Shown here piece after piece: positions 11,239 to 27,093 of a DNA stretch of 64,000 bases (position 1 is the first letter of the stretch; every line of letters begins with the position of its first letter). The position numbers and the translations under genes were made by a program. Origin of the DNA: Maribacter orientalis (GTDB taxonomy: Bacteria > Bacteroidota > Bacteroidia > Flavobacteriales > Flavobacteriaceae); the NCBI RefSeq assembly GCF_900109345.1, contig NZ_FNZN01000002.1, forward strand, positions 62,001-126,000, read 5' to 3'. The notes beneath the pieces are model-generated. The model saw only the letters and a program-made list of their open reading frames with translations. It did no database searches and was not told the origin of the DNA.

Positions 11239-12717
11239 ATGATTACACTAATTGAAAGAGCCTCTTCGTTCAAGGATAGAGTTGCCATCAAAAGCGATGG
11301 TAAAAACTACACATACAATCAACTATTAGCGCAGTCAGAACATGTTTCTGCGCATCTATTGCAAGACAAAAAAGATTTAAACCTGGCTAGAATTGCTTTT
11401 TTAGTTCCTGCGAGCTTTTCTTACGCCGCAGTTCAATGGGGAATTTGGAGGGCGGGTGGTATTGCCGTTCCTCTTTGTGAAAAACATCCGTTACCCTCCA
11501 TTCAGTATGTACTGGAAGATACCGAAGCCACAACAGTAATTTATACCGAGGCTTTCGAGCAATTACTTTCGCCTCTATTCAAAAGTACTAACATCCGATT
11601 TCTCAAATATGCTACTATTACTCCCAAAATATGCGAATTACCAAAGATTACTATAGACCGTAGCGCGCTTATTCTTTATACAAGTGGTACTACTGGGTTT
11701 CCAAAAGGTGTTGTTACTACCCACGCCAATATTGAGGCACAAATTACGGCCTTAACGACTTCTTGGGAATGGAATAAAAATGACCACGTTCTAAATGTTT
11801 TACCACTTCACCACGTGCATGGCATAATAAATATGTTAAGCTGCGCCTTATGGAGCGGAGCCTGTTGCGAGTTCTTACCTAAATTTAGCCCGAAAGCCAT
11901 ATTTGATATTTTCCTGAAAGGTGAGGTGAATGTATTTATGGCCGTACCTACGATTTACTTTAAATTAATTACCTATTTCAATGAGCTTCCTCAAGAAGAA
12001 CAACAGGCTATCTCAAACTATCTTTTAAAATTTCGTCTTATGGTTTCTGGCTCGGCCGCACTGCCTGTCAGTGTTCTGAAGGAATGGAAAGAAATTAGTG
12101 GACATACTTTATTGGAACGCTATGGCATGACTGAAATGGGAATGGCCATTAGCAATCCATATAACGAAACACGTAGGCCCGGTCACATTGGTCAACCTCT
12201 ACACGGTGTCTCTATTAGGCTAGCCGATGAAAAAAATCAAATTGTTACAGCTGGTGAACCTGGAGAAATTCAAATTAAGGGACCTAATGTTTTTAAAGAG
12301 TACTGGGGAAAGCCAGAGGCTACTGAAGAAGCTTTTACTGTCGATGGTTGGTTTAAATCTGGTGATATAGCCATATTCGATGTCGATAGTTACCAAATCT
12401 TAGGTAGGAATTCAGTAGACATCATTAAATCTGGAGGCTATAAAATATCTGCATTAGAAATTGAAGAGGTACTTCGAACACATCCCCAAATTAAAGATTG
12501 TGGTGTAGTTGGCATTCCCGATTTGGAATGGGGAGAAATTATCGGGGCTAGCATCGTTATAAAGTCTGGTAAATTATTTGCTGAAGATTTAACATCGTGG
12601 ATTCAGGAAAAATTACCTGCATATAAAACACCTAAAAAGTATCTTTTCCAAGAAGATTTACCCAGAAACGTTATGGGAAAAGTAACTAAGAATGATATTA
12701 AAAAACTATTCATATAA
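11239..12717 (+). CDS. matB: Malonyl-CoA synthetase (acyl-AMP-forming)
   Basis: A 492-residue member of the ANL superfamily. It shows the P-loop ILYTSGTTGFPKGVV (about 146-160), the A5 motif RYGMTEMGM, the A7 motif GWFKSGDIA, the hinge GRNSVDIIKSGGYKIS and the C-terminal catalytic Lys481 in NVMGKVTKND. Family enzymes activate malonate or methylmalonate with ATP and CoA. The substrate call rests mainly on context: malonate transporter genes madL and madM follow 12 bp downstream in the same direction. The MatB family is usually near 500 residues. Alternative reading: another short-chain acyl-CoA synthetase. Confidence 0.85.
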   Translation: MITLIERASSFKDRVAIKSDGKNYTYNQLLAQSEHVSAHLLQDKKDLNLARIAFLVPASFSYAAVQWGIWRAGGIAVPLCEKHPLPSIQYVLEDTEATTVIYTEAFEQLLSPLFKSTNIRFLKYATITPKICELPKITIDRSALILYTSGTTGFPKGVVTTHANIEAQITALTTSWEWNKNDHVLNVLPLHHVHGIINMLSCALWSGACCEFLPKFSPKAIFDIFLKGEVNVFMAVPTIYFKLITYFNELPQEEQQAISNYLLKFRLMVSGSAALPVSVLKEWKEISGHTLLERYGMTEMGMAISNPYNETRRPGHIGQPLHGVSIRLADEKNQIVTAGEPGEIQIKGPNVFKEYWGKPEATEEAFTVDGWFKSGDIAIFDVDSYQILGRNSVDIIKSGGYKISALEIEEVLRTHPQIKDCGVVGIPDLEWGEIIGASIVIKSGKLFAEDLTSWIQEKLPAYKTPKKYLFQEDLPRNVMGKVTKNDIKKLFI

Positions 12718-12729
12718 ATAAACCAACCT

Positions 12730-13104
12730 ATGAAAATATACGGGGTAGCATTACTAGCCGCTTGTTTCTTACTAGGGAAATTTCTGGGAAATTTGCTAGG
12801 TAAACTCATCAACATCAATAACGATATTGGAGGCGTTGGCTTTGCAATGATCTTGTTAATGGCATCGAGTATTTATCTTAGAAAAAAAGGCTGGTTAATT
12901 CCTGAAACTGAAAAAGGTGTTTGGTTTTGGAGCGCCATGTACATACCCATAATTGTTGCTATGGCTGCGACACTTAACGTTAAAGCCGCAGTTTCAGGAG
13001 GTTTTGTTGCAGTTGTTGCCGGAATCGTCACCACCGTAATCTGTATGCTATTGGTTCCTTTTTTATCTAAAATAGGCCGAAACAATGAAATTCCAAAAAC
13101 ATAG
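12730..13104 (+). CDS. madL: Malonate transporter subunit MadL
   Basis: A 124-residue, very hydrophobic protein with about four membrane helices and the start M-K-I-Y-G-V-A-L-L-A-A-C-F-L-L-G, as in MadL-family proteins. MadL and MadM together form a sodium-coupled malonate uptake system first known from Malonomonas. The gene lies 12 bp after matB and 2 bp before madM, so the three form an operon. Typical full length for the family. Confidence 0.85.
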   Translation: MKIYGVALLAACFLLGKFLGNLLGKLININNDIGGVGFAMILLMASSIYLRKKGWLIPETEKGVWFWSAMYIPIIVAMAATLNVKAAVSGGFVAVVAGIVTTVICMLLVPFLSKIGRNNEIPKT

Positions 13105-13106
13105 GT

Positions 13107-13853
13107 ATGGATATCATTGAAAAGATTATTTCTAAGAACGGACTCGTATTCGCTTTTCTATTTGTAGGCATCGTGATGCTTATTTCTTTTTGGATTTCCA
13201 AAAAAATATTGAAAAATAAAATACCTGGGGTTGCCATTGCAATTCTAATAGGATTATCATTAGCATTTTTTGGCGATAAGAAGGGTATCGCAGATATCAC
13301 CATTTTTGCAGGTATGGCGATATTGGGTGGGTCTATGTTTAGAGATTTCGCCGTTGTTGCGACAGCAATGAGTGCCGATATTTCTAAAATAAAACAAGCC
13401 GGACTTGCAGGAATAATCTCGCTATTTATTGGAGTCACTGTAACCTTTTTTATTGGGGCTATAATTGCTTACTCTATGGGTTACACAGATGCGGTTAGTA
13501 TGGCAACAATTGCAGCAGGTGCTGGTACATATATTATAGGCCCTGTAACTGGTACTGCACTGGGTGCTAGTTCAGATGTCATTGCCATAAGTGTAGCTAC
13601 TGGAGTCGTAAAAACAATTTTTACCACAATAGCAACCCCATTGATCGCCAAACGAATTAAGCTAGACAATCCACATGCTGCCGTTGTGTTTGGTGGATTA
13701 ATAGGTACTACCAGTGGTGTAGTTGCAGGCTTGGCTGCTACAGATGAAAAGCTTGTTCCTTATGGAGCATTAACCGCAACATTCTATACAGGAATTGGTT
13801 GTTTATTATGTCCTTCCGTTTTTTATTTGATATTGAAATTTTTCGGTTTTTAA
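13107..13853 (+). CDS. madM: Malonate transporter subunit MadM
   Basis: A 248-residue integral membrane protein with about seven helices. Conserved small-residue segments (GAGTYIIGPVTGTALGASSDV and FGGLIGTTSGVVAGLAATDEKLVPYGALTATFYTG regions) are typical of MadM. It follows madL by 2 bp. With MatB it gives a minimal route: malonate enters the cell and becomes malonyl-CoA, available for fatty-acid synthesis or decarboxylation. The decarboxylase genes found beside mad genes in other bacteria are absent. The gene ends 30 bp from the convergent transglutaminase gene. Confidence 0.87.
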   Translation: MDIIEKIISKNGLVFAFLFVGIVMLISFWISKKILKNKIPGVAIAILIGLSLAFFGDKKGIADITIFAGMAILGGSMFRDFAVVATAMSADISKIKQAGLAGIISLFIGVTVTFFIGAIIAYSMGYTDAVSMATIAAGAGTYIIGPVTGTALGASSDVIAISVATGVVKTIFTTIATPLIAKRIKLDNPHAAVVFGGLIGTTSGVVAGLAATDEKLVPYGALTATFYTGIGCLLCPSVFYLILKFFGF

Positions 13854-13883: not shown

Positions 13884-14774
13884 TTACTCGACCGCAGCAA
13901 TATCTACCGATACTTTCAACTTACTTTGGCCGCTTCCATACACCACACCTTTTAAGGGAGGCACATCATAATAATCCCTACCCCAACCAACCACAATGTG
14001 CTGATCTTTGGGTATCATGTTATTAGTGGGGTCAAAATCTACCCAGCCAAAACCTGGTATAAATATAGCAAACCATGCATGCGATGCATCTGCACCTACC
14101 AATTTTACCTTACCAGGAGGTGGCAGGGTTTCAATATAACCACTAATATATCGTGCAGGCAATCCAACAGAACGAATACAAGCAATGGCAATTTGCGCGA
14201 AATCTTGACAAACTCCCTTTTTTTCTTTCATAACTTCTTCTATGGGAGTCGAAATAGTAGAAAACTCCGAATCGAAATCGAAATCGGTATAAATTCGTTG
14301 CATTAATTCGTAAGCTGCATCAAAAATGGAACGGTTTCCTTTAAAAGACAATTCGGCATACTCACGTATATCCTTATCTGTGCGTCGTATGAATATTGAT
14401 TCAAGTATATACTGCTTTGCCTCAAGTACCTCTGGATCCATTCCCTGTAAAGCCAACAAAGCATTGTTCATCGTGATGTTTTTACATGTTGGACTTTTGA
14501 AAGATTCCTGGAATTTCGCATAGTCCCTTTTGATTTTACTTCTGGTAGTTACCTTCAGTATTTTATGTTCCGTTTGTATGGAAAAACGGGTGATGTAATT
14601 ACCAAAAAAGTCGATACGCTCAGATATTTCAGTGGGTTCTGGAGTAATCTGTATCGTATAATCTAAAAGCTCTTGTCCCTTCGATTCTCTTGGCCTAAGC
14701 GTAGCAATATTATGACAATAACTTACCGGGGCATTATATTCGTATTTGGTAATATGTGTTACATTAAATATCAT
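13884..14774 (-). CDS. Transglutaminase-like protein (third gene of the amidoligase-type operon)
   Basis: A 296-residue cytoplasmic protein (no signal peptide). Residues 1-80 are the beta-sandwich N-terminal domain usual in bacterial transglutaminase-like proteins. The papain-like core follows with catalytic triad Cys189 (KKGVCQDFA), His232 (DASHAWFA) and Asp248 (WVDFDPT). It starts 2 bp after the ATP-grasp/alpha-E gene. In this association such proteins are thought to act as peptidases or amide-bond exchangers on products of the partner ligases. The ligand is not known. The fold is certain; the reaction is inference. Confidence 0.9.
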   Translation of the reverse strand: MIFNVTHITKYEYNAPVSYCHNIATLRPRESKGQELLDYTIQITPEPTEISERIDFFGNYITRFSIQTEHKILKVTTRSKIKRDYAKFQESFKSPTCKNITMNNALLALQGMDPEVLEAKQYILESIFIRRTDKDIREYAELSFKGNRSIFDAAYELMQRIYTDFDFDSEFSTISTPIEEVMKEKKGVCQDFAQIAIACIRSVGLPARYISGYIETLPPPGKVKLVGADASHAWFAIFIPGFGWVDFDPTNNMIPKDQHIVVGWGRDYYDVPPLKGVVYGSGQSKLKVSVDIAAVE

Positions 14775-14776
14775 GC

Positions 14777-17338
14777 TTAAATAGGGAAAGACTGTGTAAA
14801 CAATTGGTTTTGCTTGTCTGTATGATTGAAATAGGTGTTTGATATAGATTGCGAAGTCTGATATAAAAGCTTAGAAAGAGCTTTCATTAAATTATCAAGT
14901 TCTTCTCTAGAAAAATCAGTTTCAGATTTTGTTTTGGCTAATTTTGATGATTCTGCTAACCTCAACTTTGAAAAGGCCTCGAATACAAATTTCTGATAAT
15001 TACTTAATTGATGGTCTTGTTTCGAATGTGGTAAACGAGATATATCTTTCTGCAATCGATTTATCATAAAAGTTAAAGAACGCGCATAGTCTAAATCTAA
15101 CACTACTAAATCAAGTACATGCTCCAACTCAATATGCGAACGATAACTATATCGATAAATATTTAAACTTTCGTGGCTTGTCAATAGATACTCTAACAAT
15201 TCATATTCTACCTGATCGTCGTATTTAATCGTTAGTAAGGCACGACATTTAGTAATGGTCAACGAACTTTGTTCTAATTGCAATCCTATAAAATAAAGCA
15301 ACAAACCTTGTTGCACCATAATACTCTCCTCAATCAGCCCCATAAAAGCAATTAAGCGGGTAATTAATTGATTCAAAACTTTTAAGATTCGATTAATAGA
15401 ATGATCCTCACTATCTACCAAAGAATTCCAAAGTTTCTGAATATTTTCAAAAACACGCCACATATCCGAAGACCAAAGATTACGAATAGAATAGTATGAA
15501 TTGCTGAACATACTTATGGTATGGGCTAAACTGCCCACTCTTTTTTTATCTAAGATAACCGATAACATTTCTTCATAAGGGTTATCCATCGCCAGTTTGC
15601 CATCCTTATCCTTCTCTATAAAACCTGGGTAGGTACCCGTCAATTGGGTAACAGCTTTGAAGAGTACTTTTAGCTTTTCAGAATCGGGTTTTTCATCCCT
15701 ATTCTGTACTATGGCCATTTGGCGCATAACCGTACGTAAAAAACGAGCGTTAACTAAAGTACGCCCAACATAACGCCCTGCCCAATACAAATTTTCTGCC
15801 GTGAGACTTGGCAAATCATTTAATCCTGATATTGCAACCGATGATTTCTGTTGCCATTGTCTAGTCTTGTCTTCTTTTGTGAAGGTCTCATCTAATATCC
15901 ATAAATCTTTACTTGTACCACCTCGCTGATTCGAAACCCTAACGGTTTCACTATCTGACGCTACCCTAACCAAACCACCGGGCATTACCGAATACTGGTC
16001 TTTTGAAGCAATACAAAATGCGCGGGCGACTACATTTCTAGGCTCTACGTTCCCATTGGTAAGATTCGGAGCGGTAGAAAAATTAATGTGCTCTTGAGCA
16101 ACAAAACGATACGGTCGTTCTAAAATTACTTTTTTAAGGGCTTCTATTTCTTTGAGAGTCATTAACTCTCCGAAATAGATACTTTCCCTATTTGTGCGAT
16201 CTATTCTTTTTACAACTAATTTCGATAAATTTTCTAATACGTAATTTTTCTCTTTTTCTTGTCCGCACCACCAAGAGGCTATTTGCGGTAATAACAACTC
16301 TTCTTTCAAGAAATATTTTGCAATCGTTGGCATAAAAGGAATTAACCCAGGATTTTCAATAACCCCACTTCCTACTGGATTGATGACCGTTACATTTTTT
16401 CTTCGCACCACATCTAATAATCCTGCGACTCCTAAATGTGAATCTTCACGTAATTCTAATGGATCTGTAAATGCATCATCGACCCTTCGTAATACTACAT
16501 CTATCTGTTTTAACCCTTGTAATGATTTCATCCAAAGAAAACCATCACGCACTACTAAATCATTGCCTTGTACTAATGGATATCCTAGAAATGAGGCCAT
16601 ATAGGCATGTTCAAAATACGTTTCATTATGTGATCCCGGAGTTAGAATTACGATATTCGGATTCTCTTTTTTACCTGGGGCCGCGCCAACAAGCATCTGA
16701 TTGAATTCTTGAAAAAAACCAGACAACCGTTTAACATGCATTTTCGCGAACATCTCAGGAAGAATTCTACTGCTTGTAGATCTATTCTCTAATGCATAAC
16801 CCATTCCTGATGGTGCTTCTGTACGATCATTAACTACCCACAAACGACCGTCGGTACCGCGACACAAATCTGCTGCATATATGGATAAAAACTTTTCTAG
16901 ATTAAGCTCCATTCCTGAGCATTGTCTTAAAAAACCACGATGCCCATAAATAACTTCATAGGGTACAATACCATCTTTAATCAGCTTTCGTTCGCCGTAA
17001 ACATCTTTTAAAACCAAATTAAGCAATTCGGCCCGTTGTTTTAAACCTGCCTCTACCCTATTCCACTCTTCTTGATGCAGAACAAAAGGAACCACATTCA
17101 AGCTCCAAGGCCTGTGCATTCCTTTTGGGTCATTGTATACGTTATAGGTAACGCCGTTCTCAGACAATAACCAATCAATATCTTTCTGGCGTGCCGTTAA
17201 TCCGTTCACCCCAAGTTTATCAAACCCCTTAAATAATTTGTCCCAATAAGGTTTTAACTCATCGTTCAATGAATACATTTCATCATTGCCCTGATGGGTT
17301 TTATAGCTATTTAACCAGCTAGTCTTCGTTGTTGGCAT
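14777..17338 (-). CDS. Circularly permuted ATP-grasp protein fused to an alpha-E domain
   Basis: An 853-residue protein from the ATG at 17336-17338; a TTG four codons upstream, directly abutting the preceding stop codon, is a possible alternative start. Residues about 60-480 match the circularly permuted ATP-grasp type 2 family (motifs DLCRGTDGRLWVVNDRTEAPSG and VINPVGSGVIENPGL). Residues about 505-830 match the mostly helical alpha-E domain, with S-M-F-S-N-S-Y-Y-S-I-R-N-L-W-S-S-D-M-W near its start. In many bacteria the two are separate neighbouring genes; here they are one polypeptide. Predicted to form amide bonds using ATP; substrate unknown. Confidence 0.9.
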   Translation of the reverse strand: MPTTKTSWLNSYKTHQGNDEMYSLNDELKPYWDKLFKGFDKLGVNGLTARQKDIDWLLSENGVTYNVYNDPKGMHRPWSLNVVPFVLHQEEWNRVEAGLKQRAELLNLVLKDVYGERKLIKDGIVPYEVIYGHRGFLRQCSGMELNLEKFLSIYAADLCRGTDGRLWVVNDRTEAPSGMGYALENRSTSSRILPEMFAKMHVKRLSGFFQEFNQMLVGAAPGKKENPNIVILTPGSHNETYFEHAYMASFLGYPLVQGNDLVVRDGFLWMKSLQGLKQIDVVLRRVDDAFTDPLELREDSHLGVAGLLDVVRRKNVTVINPVGSGVIENPGLIPFMPTIAKYFLKEELLLPQIASWWCGQEKEKNYVLENLSKLVVKRIDRTNRESIYFGELMTLKEIEALKKVILERPYRFVAQEHINFSTAPNLTNGNVEPRNVVARAFCIASKDQYSVMPGGLVRVASDSETVRVSNQRGGTSKDLWILDETFTKEDKTRQWQQKSSVAISGLNDLPSLTAENLYWAGRYVGRTLVNARFLRTVMRQMAIVQNRDEKPDSEKLKVLFKAVTQLTGTYPGFIEKDKDGKLAMDNPYEEMLSVILDKKRVGSLAHTISMFSNSYYSIRNLWSSDMWRVFENIQKLWNSLVDSEDHSINRILKVLNQLITRLIAFMGLIEESIMVQQGLLLYFIGLQLEQSSLTITKCRALLTIKYDDQVEYELLEYLLTSHESLNIYRYSYRSHIELEHVLDLVVLDLDYARSLTFMINRLQKDISRLPHSKQDHQLSNYQKFVFEAFSKLRLAESSKLAKTKSETDFSREELDNLMKALSKLLYQTSQSISNTYFNHTDKQNQLFTQSFPI

Positions 17339-17350
17339 TGCCTTTTTCAA

Positions 17351-20300
17351 TTACTTCTTACGTAAATCGGTTACATGTGGATACTCAGGATTGACTGGCA
17401 TCTCCTTATATACAAATGTATTTGAACCTGACTTAGGTTCAACCATTCTACCTGTAAAATTTGTTGTAGCGACCAATTCTTTCGGTGTTTCTTCATCTTG
17501 TGTTAAACCAATATCCCAAAACCTATTTATTCTTCGCGATTCGGCTTCAAGACTGTTTATAGGGTAATTATCATAGGAAAGCCCGCCAGGGTGTGCTACA
17601 AAATAAGTACAACCTCCAATAGATTTTTGATTCCAATCATCTACAATATCAAAAACCAAGGGCGTATCTACACCAATAGTTGGGTGTAATGCTGACCACG
17701 GATCCCAAGCTTTAAATCGTACACCTGCCACATACTCACCTTTTGTTCCCGTAGGACTAAGATCTACTTTTACGCCATTACACGTTAACGTATACCTTTC
17801 TACTGTGAAGTTATTAAGTTTCACCTGTATGCGTTCTAGAGAAGAATCGACATAACGCGACGTACCACGCCCCGTCATTTCTTCGCCCAGCACATTCCAA
17901 GGTTCGATGGCCATACGAAGTTCTAACTGCATTGCATTTATTTCTACCATGCCATACAATGGAAAACGGAATTCAAAGAACGGGTCGAACCAATCTAACT
18001 TAAATGGATAACCCGCATCGTTCAATTGTTCTACAATATCTTTTATATCCTCTTTTACATAATGCTCTAATAAAAATTTGTCATGAAGTTCAGAACCCCA
18101 ACGAACCAACTTATGCTTATAGGGCTTTTTCCAAAACCAAGAAACCAATGTACGCACCAACAACATTTGCATTAAACTCATTTGTGCGTGTGGTGGCATA
18201 TCAAATGCACGAAGTTCTAGTATGCCTAACCTACCTGAAGAAGAATCTGGCGAATATAATTTATCGATACAAAATTCTGCCCGATGAGTGTTTCCAGTAA
18301 TATCGGTCAATAAATGACGGAACAACCGATCAGTCAACCAAAATGGTACTTCTTTATCTTCGGGTATTTGCGAAAATGCAATCTCTAGCTCATATAAGTT
18401 TTCTAATCTAGTCTCATCAACTCGTGGTGCTTGACTCGTTGGCCCTATAAATGCCCCAGAAAATAAATAAGAAAGTCCAGGATGATGTTGCCAGAACGTC
18501 AATAAACTTCGCAACAACTGTGGATTTCGCAGTAACGGACTATCACCTGGCGTAACCCCACCTAAGGTAACGTGATTTCCTCCTCCTGTACCGGTATGCT
18601 TACCATCTAGCATAAATTTTTCAGTACCTAAACGTGCTTTTTTAGCCTCAGCATAAAGCGTCAATGTATTGTCTGTTAACTCTTGCCAGTTGTTTGCCGG
18701 ATGTACGTTTATCTCAATAACACCAGGATCAGGAGTTACTTTTAATACTTCTAATCGATTATCGCGTGGTGGCTCATACCCTTCTAAAATAATAGGCGTA
18801 TTTAATTTTTTAGCCGTTGCCTCTATACTCGCTACCAAATCCAAAAAGTCTTCTGCGCTATCTAAAGGCGGTAAATACAAGTATAACTTATCTTCTCTAA
18901 CCTCAGCACAAATTGCAGTACGAACAAAAGGCTGATTTTTATTTTTTCTTGTTTCTGTTTTCCTTCTGTTTCTTCGCTTTAAATCGACTCCGTATGCCGG
19001 TAAAGCAGGTCGTTTTTCAAAAAGTTCCGGCTCTGCTGTTGGCTCTGATGGAATTTCTGGATTTTTTGGCAAAGAGTCTAATGGTAATCGCAACCCTATT
19101 GATGAATTACCAGGTGTCAATAATAAATGCTTTCCTCTAAACTCCCACCGATTGGTAATCCATCTGCCGTTTTTTTTAATTAATGGGAATACATGACCTA
19201 CAGCCTTACCGATACCTTGCTCTAAAATATCACCTAATTTACGTCGTAAGTGGGTATCGTTCTTATTGTATTTTTTGGGATCTACATCAATGGGTAGTTT
19301 ACCTTCTTCCCATAAAAAGTAAAAAGCATCTTCGAAAGCAGGTATAACAGTTTCATTATCTGCTCCTAAAAATTTAGCTAATGTATTCAAGAATGCTTCG
19401 GTAATATTTACCGGCAATTTATAATTTTCAGCAAAAGAGGCCAGTAATTTTGGTTCTCTCCAAATTGGCTCTCCATCTTTACGCCAATGAATACCTATTA
19501 ACCAACGTGGTAAAGGTTCTCCAGGATACCATTTTCCTTGTGCATGATGTAAGACCCCGCCTTTACCGAACACATCCATTAAACTTAATGACAATTTACT
19601 TGCCAGTTTGCGTTTGTGCTCACCATCGGCCTCGGTATTCCACTCCCCAGACTCCATATCATCTACAGATACAAAAGTAGGTTCACCACCCATGGTTAGT
19701 CGAACATCATTCGCCTGTAATTCATCTTCAACCACAAAGCCCAAATCATAAATGGCTTTCCATTGCTCTTCTGTATAGGGTTTAGTTACACGTGGAGATT
19801 CAAAAATACGGGTTACAGAATTTTCAAATTCAAAGGTAGTTTCCGCAAAATCGCTAAATCCACTAACAGGTGCTGCACTTTCATAAGAAGGTGTACATGC
19901 CAAAGGAATATGACCTTCACCAGCTAATAGTCCAGATGTGGCATCTAAACCAATCCAACCCGCTCCTGGTAAATATACTTCTGCCCACGCATGTAAATCC
20001 GTAAAATCTTCTTCAGGACCCGATGGTCCATCCAATGATTTTTCGTCGGACTTCAATTGAACTAAATATCCAGAAACAAAACGTGCAGCCAAACCTAAAT
20101 GACGTAGCGTCTGTACCAACAACCAGGCATAATCTCTACACGAACCCAATTTACTACTTAAGGTTTCTTCACAAGTTTGCACTCCAGGATCCATACGCAA
20201 GGTATAGTTCAAATGATTATACAAATCGCTATTCAAACCAATTAAAAAGTCGATACTACGCTTAGGTGTCATATCTATTTTCGCCAACCAATCTTTTAGA

Positions 20301-20677
20301 AGCGGGCCACTTTCCACTTTTTCTAAATAGGGTAGTAATTCCTTTTTCAATTCTTCGGAATACGTAAAAGGAAATTCTTCTACAGCTTCTTCAACAAAGA
20401 AATCGAATGGATTAATTGTTTTTAAATCTGCAATAATTTCGACATCTACAGAAAGTTCAGTAGTCTTATCTGGGAATACGATACGTGCTAAATAATTACC
20501 AAACGGGTCTTGTTGCCAATTGAAAAAATGATTCTCTGGCTTAATCTTTATGGAGTACGATTCAATGGGTGTTCTACTATGTGGTGCAGGCCGTAATCTA
20601 AATATGTGTGGAGATAAGTTTATACTTCTATCGTATTTATATTTTGTCTTATGTTTAATTGCAACTTTTAATGCCAT
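17351..20677 (-). CDS. Transglutaminase plus DUF2126 protein (putative amidoligase)
   Basis: An 1108-residue cytoplasmic protein, first gene of the operon. Residues 1-85 are the transglutaminase-associated beta domain. The core has Cys180 (KLGSCRDYAW), His229 (DLHAWAEV) and Asp245 (IGLDATSG). From about 305 to the end is DUF2126, with the marked motif GKHTGTGGGNHVTLGG and F-I-G-P-T-S-Q-A-P-R. This resembles the glutamine-synthetase/GCS-like carboxylate-amine ligase fold and supports a second ligase activity. It abuts the next gene with almost no gap. The pairing of an amide-breaking and an amide-forming module in one chain points to peptide or amide metabolite processing. The substrate is not known. 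Confidence 0.9.
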   Translation of the reverse strand: MALKVAIKHKTKYKYDRSINLSPHIFRLRPAPHSRTPIESYSIKIKPENHFFNWQQDPFGNYLARIVFPDKTTELSVDVEIIADLKTINPFDFFVEEAVEEFPFTYSEELKKELLPYLEKVESGPLLKDWLAKIDMTPKRSIDFLIGLNSDLYNHLNYTLRMDPGVQTCEETLSSKLGSCRDYAWLLVQTLRHLGLAARFVSGYLVQLKSDEKSLDGPSGPEEDFTDLHAWAEVYLPGAGWIGLDATSGLLAGEGHIPLACTPSYESAAPVSGFSDFAETTFEFENSVTRIFESPRVTKPYTEEQWKAIYDLGFVVEDELQANDVRLTMGGEPTFVSVDDMESGEWNTEADGEHKRKLASKLSLSLMDVFGKGGVLHHAQGKWYPGEPLPRWLIGIHWRKDGEPIWREPKLLASFAENYKLPVNITEAFLNTLAKFLGADNETVIPAFEDAFYFLWEEGKLPIDVDPKKYNKNDTHLRRKLGDILEQGIGKAVGHVFPLIKKNGRWITNRWEFRGKHLLLTPGNSSIGLRLPLDSLPKNPEIPSEPTAEPELFEKRPALPAYGVDLKRRNRRKTETRKNKNQPFVRTAICAEVREDKLYLYLPPLDSAEDFLDLVASIEATAKKLNTPIILEGYEPPRDNRLEVLKVTPDPGVIEINVHPANNWQELTDNTLTLYAEAKKARLGTEKFMLDGKHTGTGGGNHVTLGGVTPGDSPLLRNPQLLRSLLTFWQHHPGLSYLFSGAFIGPTSQAPRVDETRLENLYELEIAFSQIPEDKEVPFWLTDRLFRHLLTDITGNTHRAEFCIDKLYSPDSSSGRLGILELRAFDMPPHAQMSLMQMLLVRTLVSWFWKKPYKHKLVRWGSELHDKFLLEHYVKEDIKDIVEQLNDAGYPFKLDWFDPFFEFRFPLYGMVEINAMQLELRMAIEPWNVLGEEMTGRGTSRYVDSSLERIQVKLNNFTVERYTLTCNGVKVDLSPTGTKGEYVAGVRFKAWDPWSALHPTIGVDTPLVFDIVDDWNQKSIGGCTYFVAHPGGLSYDNYPINSLEAESRRINRFWDIGLTQDEETPKELVATTNFTGRMVEPKSGSNTFVYKEMPVNPEYPHVTDLRKK

Positions 20678-20952: not shown

Positions 20953-21495
20953 ATGGAAAAGGCACTTAAAACCATGATTGATAATATGCCCGAAAAAACA
21001 GGCAAGTCTTTAAAGGAGTGGAAATCGGTTTTAAAATTAAAATCATTTGACAAGCATTCTGAAGCTGTCAATTTTCTCAAAAAAGAACATGGTGTAACCC
21101 ATGGTTTCGCCAATGCCATTGTCACTTTATCCAAAGAAGATAATAATACTCCTACAGACTTGGTTGACCAACAATACAAAGGGAAAGAAAACTTAAAACC
21201 AATTTATGAAGCCATTTTAAAAGTGGTGAAATCATTTGGCGATGATGTTACCATTACTCCTAAAAAAACCACTGTCAGTTTGATACGGAAAACACAATTC
21301 GCCCTTATTAAACCGGCTACCAAAACTAGAATTGACCTCGGACTCAAAATAAAGGATAAACCAACGACCAACCGACTCGGGTCATCTGGCCCTTTTGGTG
21401 CCATGTGTACCCATAGGGTTCAACTCACTGATGCAGCGCAAGTCGATAATGAATTAATTGAATGGCTTACTGAAGCTTACGAAAAAGCAACATAA
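20953..21495 (+). CDS. DUF4287 / DUF5655 protein
   Basis: A 180-residue soluble protein. Residues 1-65 (KALKTMIDNMPEKTGKSLKEW, then H-G-V-T-H-G-F-A-N-A-I-V) match DUF4287. Residues about 82-178 match DUF5655, with a run of basic and aromatic positions followed by L-T-D-A-A-Q-V-D-N-E-L. Such proteins are widespread in environmental bacteria, sometimes annotated as DUF4287 domain-containing; their role is not established. It lies alone between the amidoligase operon (divergent) and the CDF gene. Confidence 0.8.
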   Translation: MEKALKTMIDNMPEKTGKSLKEWKSVLKLKSFDKHSEAVNFLKKEHGVTHGFANAIVTLSKEDNNTPTDLVDQQYKGKENLKPIYEAILKVVKSFGDDVTITPKKTTVSLIRKTQFALIKPATKTRIDLGLKIKDKPTTNRLGSSGPFGAMCTHRVQLTDAAQVDNELIEWLTEAYEKAT

Positions 21496-22480: not shown

Positions 22481-23368
22481 TTACAAATGAAGTAATGCCA
22501 AAGCATCTTCAGTCTTTCCTTGTTCCAACCATTTTTGGGCTAGCTTATGAATATCAACAGAATTTTTATCTGCCAAAATAGATTTCACCTCTGAATGTGC
22601 TGCAATCTTGCTAATAGCCTCTTTGGTGGGCAGCTCTTCTAAATTACCTAATCTACCTAAATTATTTCCTGTTAAAACAGTACTATTACGAACGGCTTCC
22701 GGTAGCATATCCACCCCGATTCCTTTTGTACGTATTGGTTTTGGAATTTCAAAAAGCGCATCACCATTGGCTCGGCAATACCAATTACCACCCATGCGTG
22801 CAACTAAATCCAATTTTGGAGTGTCCAGATTTCCATCGGCATCTAAATATGCTTTTTTTACATGAATTTGAACCACTTTAGCCAATACCAGGTTACCTGC
22901 TCCCGGTCCGTCACCTAATGCAATTACTTTATCGACAACACACTCAAAAGCAACAGGAGCCTCCCCCACTCTTGGTGGTTTCACTTTATCGCTAGGTACT
23001 TGTGTAAAGCCAGCTTTTACGAATTCATTTACGCCTTCATCATATTCGGTACTTGATAATGACATTTGCTCTACCATATCGTAATTGACGATATTGATGA
23101 CTGTTTCTTTTACTTCCAGTACATTTTCTAAGGTATGTTTGGTGGTATTATCACGACCTCTTCGCGAAGGAGAGAAAATCATGATTGGCGGATTTACACT
23201 AAATAGGTTAAAATAACTGAACGGACTCAAATTCACGTTTCCTTCCTTGTCAATGGTACTGGCAAAACATATGGGTCTTGGTGCAACTGCAGATAATAAA
23301 TAACCATGCAACTCTTGTTGCGAAATGGAAGTCGGGTCTATTGAATTTATTTCCTCGTTATTTGACAT
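22481..23368 (-). CDS. Flavin reductase-like (DIM6/NTAB family) protein
   Basis: A 295-residue FMN-binding split-barrel protein. The conserved core includes PRPICFASTIDKEGNVNLSPFSYFN (about 31-55) and P-P-I-M-I-F-S-P-S-R-R-G-R. The C-terminal 70 residues are an extra helical stretch not found in the roughly 200-residue short members. It is the last gene of the tyrosine-degradation cluster, 17 bp after fahA. Homologs often sit in this place in flavobacterial homogentisate clusters. Its reaction here is not known; an accessory oxidoreductase role is inferred. Confidence 0.87.
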   Translation of the reverse strand: MSNNEEINSIDPTSISQQELHGYLLSAVAPRPICFASTIDKEGNVNLSPFSYFNLFSVNPPIMIFSPSRRGRDNTTKHTLENVLEVKETVINIVNYDMVEQMSLSSTEYDEGVNEFVKAGFTQVPSDKVKPPRVGEAPVAFECVVDKVIALGDGPGAGNLVLAKVVQIHVKKAYLDADGNLDTPKLDLVARMGGNWYCRANGDALFEIPKPIRTKGIGVDMLPEAVRNSTVLTGNNLGRLGNLEELPTKEAISKIAAHSEVKSILADKNSVDIHKLAQKWLEQGKTEDALALLHL

Positions 23369-23385
23369 TGCTTTAGAATTCTAAG

Positions 23386-24648
23386 TTATTTACTTGGTAC
23401 TATGGTTCCAGATACTTCCCCAAAACCTACTCTCTTTCCATCTTTTTCTGCGAAACCTCGAATCGTAATCGAATCGTAATCTTCAATAAATGTACGGTCG
23501 CTACCATCCTTCAATTTAAACGGTTTTTTACCTCCCCATGAAATTTCCAATAAAGAACCATAAGAGCTTTCAACTTTACCTGAAATAGTACCAGATGCCA
23601 TTACATCACCCACATTTACATTGCACCCATTTACGGTATGATGCGCCAGTTGTTGCATCATATTCCAATACATATATTTGAAATTTGATTTGCTTATAAC
23701 AGTTTCATCTGAGGTTTGCGTAGACATACCTACTTCTAATTGAATGTCATAATTTTTCTTCCCTTTATATTTTAAATAGGATAATACCTCTGGTTGTTGC
23801 TCAGGACCTTGAACTTTAAAAGGTTCTAATGCCTCCAAAGTAACAATCCATGGCGACATGGAAGACGCAAAGTTTTTCCCTAAGAACGGACCTAAAGGAA
23901 CATATTCCCATTTTTGAATATCACGTGCAGACCAGTCATTGAACAACACTAAACCGAAGATATGTTCAGCGGCATTTTTGGTTGAAATACGCTCACCTAA
24001 TTCGGTGCTTTTGCCAACTATAAAACCCATTTCCAATTCAAAATCTAAATTTTTAGAGGGTTTGAACGAGGGCAATTCTTCAGTATTTGGTTTTACCTGA
24101 CCCATGGGTCTGTGAATATTGGTGCCACTGACCACAATTGAAGAAGCGCGACCATGATACCCTACCGGTATATGCCTCCAGTTCGGTAACAACGCATTTT
24201 CTGGATCACGGAACATCTTACCCACGTTGGTGGCATGCTCTATACTAGAATAGAAATCGGTATAATCACCCACATGCACCGGTAAATGCATAGTTGCATC
24301 TTTTTGAAACAGGAAAACTTCAGGATGATTTCTCAGCGGAGATTTCTCAGAAACCAACAAACCTTGTATATCTAAACGAACCTTATTGGTAATTTTCTTT
24401 CCTAAGGCAATGAAATCATTTAAGGTTTTCTGCCTGAAATATGCGGCACTTACCTCTAACAACCCTAAATCGGATATTGCCGCCAAATCTAAAATCTGGT
24501 CTCCAATAGCCATACCTGCCCTTGGCTCATCATTTTTTAACGAGAAGATACCAAACGGAAGGTTATAGATTGAAAAATCTGAATTTTCGGGTACGGAGAC
24601 CCATGTCTTTAATGTTGCCAAATGTTTACTTATTTCTGTTATAACCAA
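23386..24648 (-). CDS. fahA: Fumarylacetoacetase
   Basis: A 420-residue enzyme, the length of eukaryote-type FAH. Metal and active-site motifs are intact: DYTDFYSS, LDFELEMGFIVG and NDWSARDIQKWEYVPLGPFL, followed by G-K-N-F-A-S-S-M-S-P-W. It hydrolyses fumarylacetoacetate to fumarate and acetoacetate, the last step of tyrosine degradation. The start is a TTG at 24646-24648 that overlaps the end of hmgA by 10 bp; no ATG lies nearby, so translational coupling is likely. Some homologs begin closer to K-T-W-V-S-V-P-E-N-S. Confidence 0.94.
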   Translation of the reverse strand: MVITEISKHLATLKTWVSVPENSDFSIYNLPFGIFSLKNDEPRAGMAIGDQILDLAAISDLGLLEVSAAYFRQKTLNDFIALGKKITNKVRLDIQGLLVSEKSPLRNHPEVFLFQKDATMHLPVHVGDYTDFYSSIEHATNVGKMFRDPENALLPNWRHIPVGYHGRASSIVVSGTNIHRPMGQVKPNTEELPSFKPSKNLDFELEMGFIVGKSTELGERISTKNAAEHIFGLVLFNDWSARDIQKWEYVPLGPFLGKNFASSMSPWIVTLEALEPFKVQGPEQQPEVLSYLKYKGKKNYDIQLEVGMSTQTSDETVISKSNFKYMYWNMMQQLAHHTVNGCNVNVGDVMASGTISGKVESSYGSLLEISWGGKKPFKLKDGSDRTFIEDYDSITIRGFAEKDGKRVGFGEVSGTIVPSK

Positions 24649-25793
24649 GATTGGTAATAATCGCCGTCATCTAATTTTAGTGCATTTTCGGTCACCATTA
24701 ACGGTTTAAACGTATCTATCATTACCGCTAATTCTTCCGAACCTTTTTGACCTATACTCCGTTCTGCGGCACCAGGGTGCGGACCATGAGGTATACCCGC
24801 CGGATGTAATGATATATTACCTGGCTGTACGCCATTTCTACTCATAAAATCACCATCTACGTAATACAACATCTCATCAGAATCTATATTCGAGTGATTA
24901 TAAGGTGCCGGTATAGAAAGCCGATGATAATCATATAATCGTGGTACAAACGAACAGATTACAAAGGCATTCGTCTCGAATGTTTGATGAACTGGTGGCG
25001 GTTGATGAATTCTACCTGTGATAGGTTCAAAATTGTGAATGGAGAATCCGTATGGGAAATTATATCCATCCCAACCCACAACATCAAAAGGGTGACCAAT
25101 GTACACCATTTCATGCATGACACCTTGCTTCTTCACCTTCATTAAATGTTCATTGGTATCGATAAACGTTTCCAGATTTTGCGGTAATTTATAATCACGC
25201 TCACAAAAAGGGGAATGCTCCAATAACTGACCAAACCAATTGCGATAGCGTTTTGGTGTGTATATCGGCGAAAAGGATTCGGCATATAAAATACGATTGT
25301 CCTCTGTATTAAAATCAATCTGATAAATAGTCCCTCTAGGAATAATTAAATAGTCTCCATATTCAAAGGGAATCTGTCCAAAAATGGTTCGTAACGTACC
25401 TGTTCCTTTATGAATGAACAACATTTCATCGGCATCGGTATTTTTATAAAAATAATCTCGTAACGATTTTCTTGGCGCTGCAACTCCTATAATAATATCA
25501 CTGTTCACCAATAATGGTTCACGAGCCTCTAAGAAATCATCTTTTGCAGGGGCATTAAAACTCACCAATTTTAACGAACGAATATTCTTTTCCAAAGCAA
25601 TTTTTGGAGAAACATCGGTGCTCTTTAATATCTCCTTGACCATGGTAGGTCTATTGTGGTGATATAATAAAGAGGACATACCGTCAAAACCAATGGTACC
25701 GAACAATTGCTCAGAATATAATTCACCATTTGGTTTTCTAAACTGCGTATGCCGCTTAGGTGGCAATTCTCCTTGTTTATGATATATTGGCAT
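24639..25793 (-). CDS. hmgA: Homogentisate 1,2-dioxygenase
   Basis: A 384-residue cupin-fold dioxygenase, shorter than the roughly 430-residue proteobacterial enzymes but usual for Bacteroidota. Recognisable motifs are F-I-H-K-G-T-G-T-L-R-T-I-F-G in the cupin core, HPFDVVGWDGYNFPYGFSI and the late PHGPHPGAAERS, which supplies iron-site histidines. It opens the homogentisate ring to maleylacetoacetate using O2 and Fe(II). It overlaps fahA by 10 bp and is separated from hpd by 169 bp that hold a strong hairpin. Confidence 0.94.
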   Translation of the reverse strand: MPIYHKQGELPPKRHTQFRKPNGELYSEQLFGTIGFDGMSSLLYHHNRPTMVKEILKSTDVSPKIALEKNIRSLKLVSFNAPAKDDFLEAREPLLVNSDIIIGVAAPRKSLRDYFYKNTDADEMLFIHKGTGTLRTIFGQIPFEYGDYLIIPRGTIYQIDFNTEDNRILYAESFSPIYTPKRYRNWFGQLLEHSPFCERDYKLPQNLETFIDTNEHLMKVKKQGVMHEMVYIGHPFDVVGWDGYNFPYGFSIHNFEPITGRIHQPPPVHQTFETNAFVICSFVPRLYDYHRLSIPAPYNHSNIDSDEMLYYVDGDFMSRNGVQPGNISLHPAGIPHGPHPGAAERSIGQKGSEELAVMIDTFKPLMVTENALKLDDGDYYQSWL

Positions 25794-25868
25794 ATTCGTT
25801 AGTTTAATCGATAATCGAGATTAAATACTTCATGGCTTACCTCGAAATCTTAAAGTTATTTTCTAAGG

Positions 25869-25897
25869 AATACCTCGTGGCTTTGCCACGAGGTATT
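25869..25897. terminator. 13-bp perfect hairpin between hpd and hmgA
   Basis: Arms 25869-25881 (AATACCTCGTGGC) and 25885-25897 pair perfectly around TTT. It lies between two genes of the same pathway on the minus strand. A T-rich tract follows only on the plus side, so on the hpd-to-hmgA transcript it may act as a partial terminator or a processing/stability element rather than a full stop. Confidence 0.6.
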
Positions 25898-25962
25898 TTA
25901 TTAATCAATAAAGCTTCCTTTAAAAGTAATCTATTCTTAGATTTTCAAGAAATCTGTTGAAC

Positions 25963-27093
25963 TTATAAAGTTCCTCTCAATTCTTGCTCACGCTCAATAG
26001 CTTCGAACAACGCTTTGAAATTTCCTTTCCCAAAAGAAGTAGCTCCTTTTCTTTGAATAATCTCAAAAAACATGGTTGGTCTTGCCTGTACCGTCTTGGT
26101 GAAAATCTGCAATAAATAGCCTTCATCATCACGATCCACCAAAATACCTAGTTTTCTTAATGATTCTATATCCTCATCAATTTCACCAACTCTTTCGGTC
26201 AATACATCATAATACGTTGTTGGTATGGTAAGAAATTCTACTCCTCTACTTTTAAGATCTGAAACTGTTTTTACTATATCATCCGTTGCTACGGCAATAT
26301 GCTGTACCCCTTCACCTTCGTAGAATTCTAAGTACTCATCTACTTGAGATTTTTTCATTCCCGGGGCAGGTTCGTTTATAGGAAACTTAATACGACCGTT
26401 TCCATTACTCATTACCTTACTCATCAATGCCGTAAACTCTGTTGAAATATCTTTATCATCAAAGGACATAATCTGCTTAAAGCCCATTACATTGGCATAG
26501 AAATCTACCCAATAGTTCATTTGACCTTCATTCACATTACCTACCATATGATCTACAAATTTTAAACCTGTTGAAGTTGGCTGGTAATCACTTTCCCATT
26601 TTTGGTACCCTGGCAAAAATGTTCCGTTGTAGTTTTTACGCTCTACAAAAATATGCACAACCTCACCGTAAGAATAGATTCCCGAACGAACTACTTTACC
26701 GCTCTCATCTTCCTCTATAACTGGCTTCATGTAGCTTTTGGCCCCTCTTTTCATAGCCTCTTCATAAGCATAGGTAGCATCATCTACCCAAAGTGCAGTC
26801 ACTTTTACACCGTCACCATGCTTATCAATATGCCTACCTACATCCGTTCCACTTTTTAATGGAGATGTCAAAACCAAACGAATCTTGTCTTGTTCTACAA
26901 CATAAGATTCCAAATCTCTACTACCAGTCTCCAAACCCTTATAAGCTAGAGATTTAAAACCGAATGCAGTTTTGTAATAATGTGCCGCTTGTTTTGAATT
27001 ACTTACGTACAGTTCCAAATAATCTGTACCATTGATAGGCATAAAATCTTGTGCCTCTTTGTGTTTATTTTCTACTGCTGTTGATGTTGACAT
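25963..27093 (-). CDS. hpd: 4-hydroxyphenylpyruvate dioxygenase
   Basis: A 376-residue vicinal-oxygen-chelate enzyme with two VOC domains. The Fe(II) ligands are His182 (FVDHMVGNV), His265 (GVQHIAVAT) and Glu344 (MFFEIIQRKG). The C-terminal helix GNFKALFEAIEREQ that gates the active site is present. It converts 4-hydroxyphenylpyruvate to homogentisate. It is 64 bp after the aminotransferase that would supply its substrate and upstream of hmgA. Confidence 0.95.
   Translation of the reverse strand: MSTSTAVENKHKEAQDFMPINGTDYLELYVSNSKQAAHYYKTAFGFKSLAYKGLETGSRDLESYVVEQDKIRLVLTSPLKSGTDVGRHIDKHGDGVKVTALWVDDATYAYEEAMKRGAKSYMKPVIEEDESGKVVRSGIYSYGEVVHIFVERKNYNGTFLPGYQKWESDYQPTSTGLKFVDHMVGNVNEGQMNYWVDFYANVMGFKQIMSFDDKDISTEFTALMSKVMSNGNGRIKFPINEPAPGMKKSQVDEYLEFYEGEGVQHIAVATDDIVKTVSDLKSRGVEFLTIPTTYYDVLTERVGEIDEDIESLRKLGILVDRDDEGYLLQIFTKTVQARPTMFFEIIQRKGATSFGKGNFKALFEAIEREQELRGTL

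Follow-up and report, generated by a model that had tools for sequence, protein, structure and literature searches.

A predicted peptide-tagging system consisting of an ATP-grasp, a glutamine-synthetase-like ligase, Alpha-E and an Ntn-hydrolase was reportedly described by Iyer et al. in 2009. Its circularly permuted (CP) ATP-grasp, Alpha-E and transglutaminase (TG) with DUF2126 recur in a three-gene operon at positions 13884-20677, minus strand, of a 64,000-nucleotide stretch of Maribacter orientalis DNA (Flavobacteriaceae; NCBI RefSeq assembly GCF_900109345.1, contig NZ_FNZN01000002.1, positions 62,001 to 126,000), the whole of which is referred to here as the window. The operon differs from that system in having no Anbu, in the fusion of its ATP-grasp to Alpha-E, in the loss of ATP-grasp motifs, and in the presence of a second, intact cluster elsewhere in the genome. 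The probable loss of ligase function in the fused ATP-grasp, and the partner cluster that may supply it, are the subject of this report.

PMC5666114 and PMC6376114 cite Iyer et al. and describe what the peptide-synthesis and tagging proposals say about Anbu. According to these papers, neither Anbu activity nor a complex was detected for the Anbu operon, and the ATP-grasp of the Yersinia Anbu operon frees phosphate from ATP (PMC6376114). The Anbu operon (Yersinia bercovieri, Hyphomicrobium type) has the ATP-grasp, Alpha-E and transglutaminase families in common with the window, which differs in lacking Anbu and in having DUF2126 together with an ATP-grasp–Alpha-E that is fused and divergent. 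Searches of the window genome (4.16 Mb in 26 contigs) with a single Anbu protein (E up to 1) and with a four-row profile (E up to 0.001) found no Anbu; across 198 genomes from the window's phylum, this one among them, the profile matched in 15. The ATP-grasp fold is shared with the putative glutathionylspermidine synthase of Methylobacillus flagellatus (3n6x; phmmer E 1.5e-88) and with (homo)glutathione synthetases (Foldseek E 1.6e-11 and weaker); 3n6x carries LEDN and SGGYG, whereas the fused protein of the window has neither. No report of the product of the system was found in the literature.

Operon organization

All three genes lie on the minus strand. The first encodes a TG–DUF2126 protein of 1108 amino acids (aa; 17351-20677; open reading frame, PF09899, PF08379 and PF01841) with Bact_transglu_N, Transglut_core and DUF2126 in one chain. 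Its stop abuts the TTG start of the fused ATP-grasp–Alpha-E gene (857 aa, 14777-17350), leaving a gap of 0 bp, or of 12 bp if the alternative in-frame ATG four codons in is used; the separate transglutaminase-like gene (296 aa, 13884-14774) follows after 2 bp. The spacing of 0-12 bp given in an earlier note, made from the letters of the window and their translations, is therefore borne out, and Pfam agrees with its family assignments and with the ATP-grasp/Alpha-E fusion. DUF2126 (PF09899) scored 1250.6 bits against a cut-off of 27 and spanned profile positions 2-826 of 826; the 857 aa protein matched CP_ATPgrasp_2 (PF14403) at 502 bits and Alpha-E (PF04168) at 180.3 bits; and the 296 aa protein consists of Bact_transglu_N and Transglut_core, with 3isr as a solved relative (E 2e-14).

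NCBIfam gave no name for any of the three operon proteins, and promoter and terminator scans returned matches at chance level. A defence role was considered and is unsupported, PADLOC having returned nothing. No signal peptide was seen in the operon proteins on inspection by eye only. The step taken earlier from the missing signal peptide to a cytoplasmic substrate does not hold, since the absence of such a peptide places the enzymes, not the substrate.

Motif loss in the fused ATP-grasp

Across 95 loci, ATP-grasp was seen in 59 fused frames and 50 stand-alone ones, from which 58 fused and 44 stand-alone rows, each with a match of more than 400 residues, were compared. Every one of the 44 stand-alone rows has E-D-N at alignment columns 184-186 and GGY-G at columns 415-417 and 420. 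Of the fused rows, 1/58 has the E of E-x-N, 0/58 the N and 0/58 the GGY-G loop. The ATP-grasp domain of the window protein (15959-17089; CP_ATPgrasp_2 at residues 88-464), predicted to be degenerate, has N174-D175-R176 (16823-16831) at the E-D-N position and T-N-R-E where the glycine loop would stand, within the stretch from K381 to E389 (16184-16210). Both motifs are kept by the stand-alone ATP-grasp of the same genome, which lies in the second cluster (locus L010, described below). Because E-x-N and GGY-G are lost while every stand-alone paralogue compared keeps both, the fused ATP-grasp is probably a conserved pseudo-ligase, for which no earlier mention was found in the literature searched, the full text of Iyer et al. 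2009 lying outside that search.

In a quick tree of 102 ATP-grasp rows, with some long branches, a branch supported at 100% by the Shimodaira–Hasegawa-like approximate likelihood ratio test (SH-aLRT) separated all fused proteins from the stand-alone ones, and the fused protein of the window grouped with Flavobacteriaceae. A model of the fused protein (predicted local distance difference test, pLDDT, 86.5; predicted template modelling score, pTM, 0.83) was matched by Foldseek to 3n6x (E 1.1e-33) and then to eukaryotic-type glutathione synthetases, as well as to 2io7 and 2ioa of the glutathionylspermidine-synthetase (GspS) family.

The Alpha-E part (14828-15814; Pfam residues 513-841) is divergent as well, and its motif loss follows the same trend in the 57 fused and 47 stand-alone rows compared. 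R-E-N was present in 44/47 stand-alone and 0/57 fused rows, the first ER in 47/47 and 44/57, and the second ER in 45/47 and 39/57, respectively. In the window, the first ER is G-R and the second E-Q, beside the Pfam match given above. A tree of 104 Alpha-E rows set the fused apart from the stand-alone proteins with 100% bootstrap and SH-aLRT support among the rows listed. A profile search of structures gave no solved relative of Alpha-E (best E 0.17).

These results bear on the published reading, which is also that of the earlier note, namely a two-ligase peptide-synthesis or tagging system in which the operon ATP-grasp and DUF2126 both form amides and the transglutaminases are peptidases. Family membership and gene neighbourhood fit this account, both ligase families are conserved in several phyla, and peptide-synthesis and tagging proposals are reported in PMC5666114 and PMC6376114. 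The operon ATP-grasp, however, has neither E-x-N nor the glycine loop, both of which are present in each of the 44 stand-alone paralogues compared; the count of two amide-forming modules in this operon is not sustained, and we regard the two-ligase account as unlikely, if by no means far-fetched.

Several observations weigh against a loss of catalysis. K409 is kept in 50/58 fused proteins, D320 in 54/58, K536 and D537 in 58/58, and D170, a third candidate metal residue, in 48/58; given these other conserved residues, altered catalysis by the fused protein is possible. The motif binds Mg, as E-x-N, in GspS and in human glutathione synthetase, an assignment for which no paper text was found. In a profile alignment, E-D-N aligned with the E-x-N, and the conserved lysine with the lysine, of five GspS-family proteins, at a probability of only 4–5%. 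A fused ATP-grasp that is active through re-specialised metal or phosphate ligands (e.g. D175, R176, the conserved G-x-G-Y stretch and E332), and so has a new ligase specificity, would account for the columns conserved in its clade (D185 in 54/58, R186 in 53/58, Q188 in 50/58 with E in the window, G194 in 58/58 and E360 in 52/58). As the loss takes in the glycine loop along with two residues of the motif, such a re-specialised ligase seems to us distinctly unlikely.

A second, intact cluster in the same genome

An intact ATP-grasp, Alpha-E and transglutaminase cluster, missed by the earlier note, is present in the same genome (L010, contig C16). In trees it grouped with stand-alone copies that adjoin the operon in Lacinutrix (L025) and in another member of the Flavobacteriaceae (L027). 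Two marine Flavobacteriaceae, Leeuwenhoekiella parthenopeia (L024, G198) and Algibacter lectus (L026, G199), likewise carry both clusters. Among the 198 genomes of the phylum, DUF2126 was found in nine and Alpha-E in 78, of which 69 were without DUF2126. Stand-alone Alpha-E was present in 9/9 DUF2126 genomes (p = 1.7e-4), and the fused gene in 6/9 as against 0/189 genomes without DUF2126 (p = 1.1e-9), both values being uncorrected and ignoring kinship. In a further set of 35 DUF2126 genomes, which lie behind 35 of 80 loci and may overlap the first set, stand-alone Alpha-E was found in 34; judged by open-frame length, 29 had both forms and five the stand-alone form only, one of the five (G219, with frames of 429, 707 and 467 aa) being counted as not fused. 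The operon therefore probably depends on an intact stand-alone cluster elsewhere in the genome. Two points count against such dependence: the co-occurrence counts take no account of relatedness, and one of the 35 genomes (G230, a metagenome-assembled genome, MAG) had the fused form only.

The fused gene and DUF2126 were found apart in two genomes, by 127 kb in G091 and on different contigs in G137. An apparent fused gene without DUF2126 in G090 (L021) was rejected after a six-frame search, in which the 844 aa Alpha-E frame overlapped a separate ATP-grasp gene in another frame; a transglutaminase follows the Alpha-E frame at this locus. G151, also without DUF2126, gave no more than a partial match, below the cut-off.

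Conservation and predicted fold of DUF2126

The DUF2126 domain occupies 17360-19849. The GTGGGNHVTLGG stretch pointed out in the earlier note is present, and its GTGGGNH part is invariant across the 81 rows of alignment A3, window included; in the nine-row alignment A1, S replaces T in one row. A large set of further residues is likewise invariant in A3. A model built from 81 sequences (pLDDT 79, pTM 0.80) had 604 matches in Foldseek with an E-value of 10 or less. All 50 matches listed belong to the glutamine-synthetase superfamily (E 6.2e-3 to 0.32), 49 of them by title; the fiftieth, 1tt4, we take to be a glutamine-synthetase relative. Structural modelling of DUF2126 against glutamine-synthetase folds, as proposed in the earlier note, thus weakly favours such a fold.

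The fold assignment has several points against it: none of the 604 matches reached E <=0.001 (best E 6.2e-3), TM-scores were low, the 50 rows hold many chains of the same entries, and profile comparison of DUF2126 with 24 glutamine synthetases plus six short partial matches gave no signal. Comparison of the DUF2126 profile with the GspS-family, ATP-grasp and Alpha-E alignments gave no signal either, the shallow sequence sets being a possible cause of these null results. Solved structures searched with the DUF2126 profile yielded just two weak matches (E 0.066), both of them lincosamide resistance proteins, and these were set aside as chance or at most local likeness. Iyer et al. 2009 reportedly claimed a circular permutation. 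From the model, we infer that DUF2126 may be a glutamine-synthetase-like ligase.

Transglutaminase-like units

Both Cys-His-Asp triads are intact, as had been read from the translations: C180/H229/D245 in the N-terminal transglutaminase-like part of the TG–DUF2126 protein (19940-20662) and C189/H232/D248 in the separate protein. In rows with a match of more than 200 residues, window included, C, H and D were kept in 89/89 DUF2126-fused and 64/64 separate transglutaminases. Intact triads in all transglutaminases counted, two such units in the operon with a third in L010, and the nitrogen regulation of related clusters (below) would suit a mainly degradative system, in which transglutaminase-like cysteine hydrolases would act on amides or crosslinked peptides to free their nitrogen, with sensing or priming of the substrate falling to the ligase-like parts. 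The large invariant residue set of DUF2126 in A3 suggests a working enzyme, and a chiefly degradative role appears very improbable.

Distribution and gene order

GTDB contigs were scanned with alignment A1. At least 594 stretches, not necessarily separate genes, were matched, and at least 593 encode a DUF2126 relative, the relative of highest identity among the matches listed being that of Kriegella sp. EG-1 (84%, best segment). Locus counts refer to the window together with the best 80 loci of the at least 593 related stretches, 81 in all. Bacteroidota, Pseudomonadota, Verrucomicrobiota and Planctomycetota are named among the loci, as are Campylobacterota, Nitrospirota, Thermodesulfobacteriota and Poribacteria.

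DUF2126 was fused to a transglutaminase at 81/81 loci. The fused ATP-grasp–Alpha-E gene was present at 54/81, stand-alone ATP-grasp or Alpha-E at 46/81, and both fused and stand-alone forms at 31/81. Within the locus DNA examined, neither form was found at 12/81 loci; five of these were included in a whole-genome check, and Alpha-E was found in 5/5 genomes. Anbu was present at 13/81 loci, and at locus L023 ATP-grasp, Alpha-E, Anbu and TG stand in one row. The fused gene directly followed DUF2126 on the same strand at 42/81 loci, and the direct order TG–DUF2126, fused gene, TG was found at 38/81, window included. Since this order recurs in several phyla, chance is not a reasonable explanation, and the co-occurrence of the families stated in the earlier note is supported. 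Within a class that is known and widespread but uncharacterised, this operon is an ordinary member.

A family of approximately 410 aa recurs near DUF2126 at 8/81 loci (L040, L042, L047, L052, L058, L070, L085 and L099) and was without a Pfam match in the two members scanned. A 90.7 kb Enterobacter roggenkampii plasmid also carries DUF2126 (H1, NZ_CP116251.1, 18498-20999) and is one of 25 records with a DUF2126 match in all in the plasmid collection. At L029, the operon occurs in a MAG record titled Helicobacter pylori PMSS1, a title that may be misassigned.

Probable nitrogen regulation

A probable link of the system to nitrogen stress, absent from the earlier note, emerges from published work on related clusters. 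In Burkholderia cenocepacia H111, I35_5080-83 are among the common targets of NtrC and sigma-54 and are given as DUF404/407, DUF403 and two transglutaminase-like proteins, one of them large (PMC5491218), the same families as in the window. The record of another B. cenocepacia strain has the order ATP-grasp, Alpha-E, TG, TG–DUF2126, fused ATP-grasp–Alpha-E, TG, and because this gene order matches, the large H111 protein is very likely TG–DUF2126. The B. cenocepacia cluster differs from that of the window in belonging to another phylum and in having the intact pair alongside it, a pair that lies far from the operon in the window genome; in the portion of PMC5491218 available, the fused gene is not part of the description of I35_5080-83.

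In Pseudomonas putida on nitrate, transcript increases (log2) of 3.99 for PP_2688 (CP ATP-grasp) and 4.44 for PP_2685 are given in PMC8050072, together with a 3.7-fold rise of a PP_2688 promoter reporter on nitrogen limitation. PP_2685, a proteasome beta subunit, was taken as Anbu, which is upregulated in nitrogen-limited P. putida according to PMC5666114. The domains of the system are also linked with urea metabolism in marine metagenomes in PMC3597751. By analogy with these clusters, the system is probably switched on by nitrogen stress. Against this stand the carrying over from Pseudomonadota to a Bacteroidota host, the absence of a sigma-54-like site just upstream of the operon, a PP_2685 promoter reporter that was nitrogen-agnostic though the transcript rose (PMC8050072), and Anbu operon expression that was unchanged in several other conditions (PMC5666114). 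Over the window, a sigma-54-like pattern was observed 35 times against 25.2 expected, with none of the hits in the interval that separates the operon start from the neighbouring gene.

Neighbouring genes

The divergent neighbour of the operon (20953-21495) has DUF4287 and DUF5655 domains by Pfam. An AMP-binding ligase lies beside the malonate transporter subunits MadL and MadM at 11239-13853, likely a malonate uptake and activation cluster. Open reading frames at 22481-27093 resemble enzymes of the homogentisate and fumarylacetoacetate pathway, as judged by eye without a family search.

Proposed role of the operon

We tentatively favour, with confidence somewhat short of even, a reading in which the operon adds an accessory layer to a widespread system that forms and cleaves amides and is probably induced by nitrogen stress. 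DUF2126, as a glutamine-synthetase-like ligase, would be the ATP-using enzyme of the operon. The fused ATP-grasp–Alpha-E would bind or position a substrate or partner and would not activate it, and the working ATP-grasp ligase would be the stand-alone paralogue of L010, with its own Alpha-E and transglutaminase. The transglutaminase-like units would use Cys-His-Asp chemistry to trim or hydrolyse the amide product, or to transfer it. A more specific proposal, which is conceivable and which we hold with more doubt than conviction, is that the pseudo-ATP-grasp with its divergent Alpha-E may serve as an adaptor without catalysis of its own, linking DUF2126 to the intact stand-alone ATP-grasp/Alpha-E ligase, so that a nitrogen-stress amide would be made by two sequential ligases.

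Three points materially amend the earlier reading: the operon ATP-grasp is probably a pseudo-ligase, an intact partner cluster lies elsewhere in the genome, and Anbu was not found in that genome. Assays of the fused protein alone are likely to give a misleading negative. Telling the probably dead ATP-grasp from the intact one shows experimenters which proteins to co-purify, and nitrogen starvation offers a concrete growth condition in which to search for the product.

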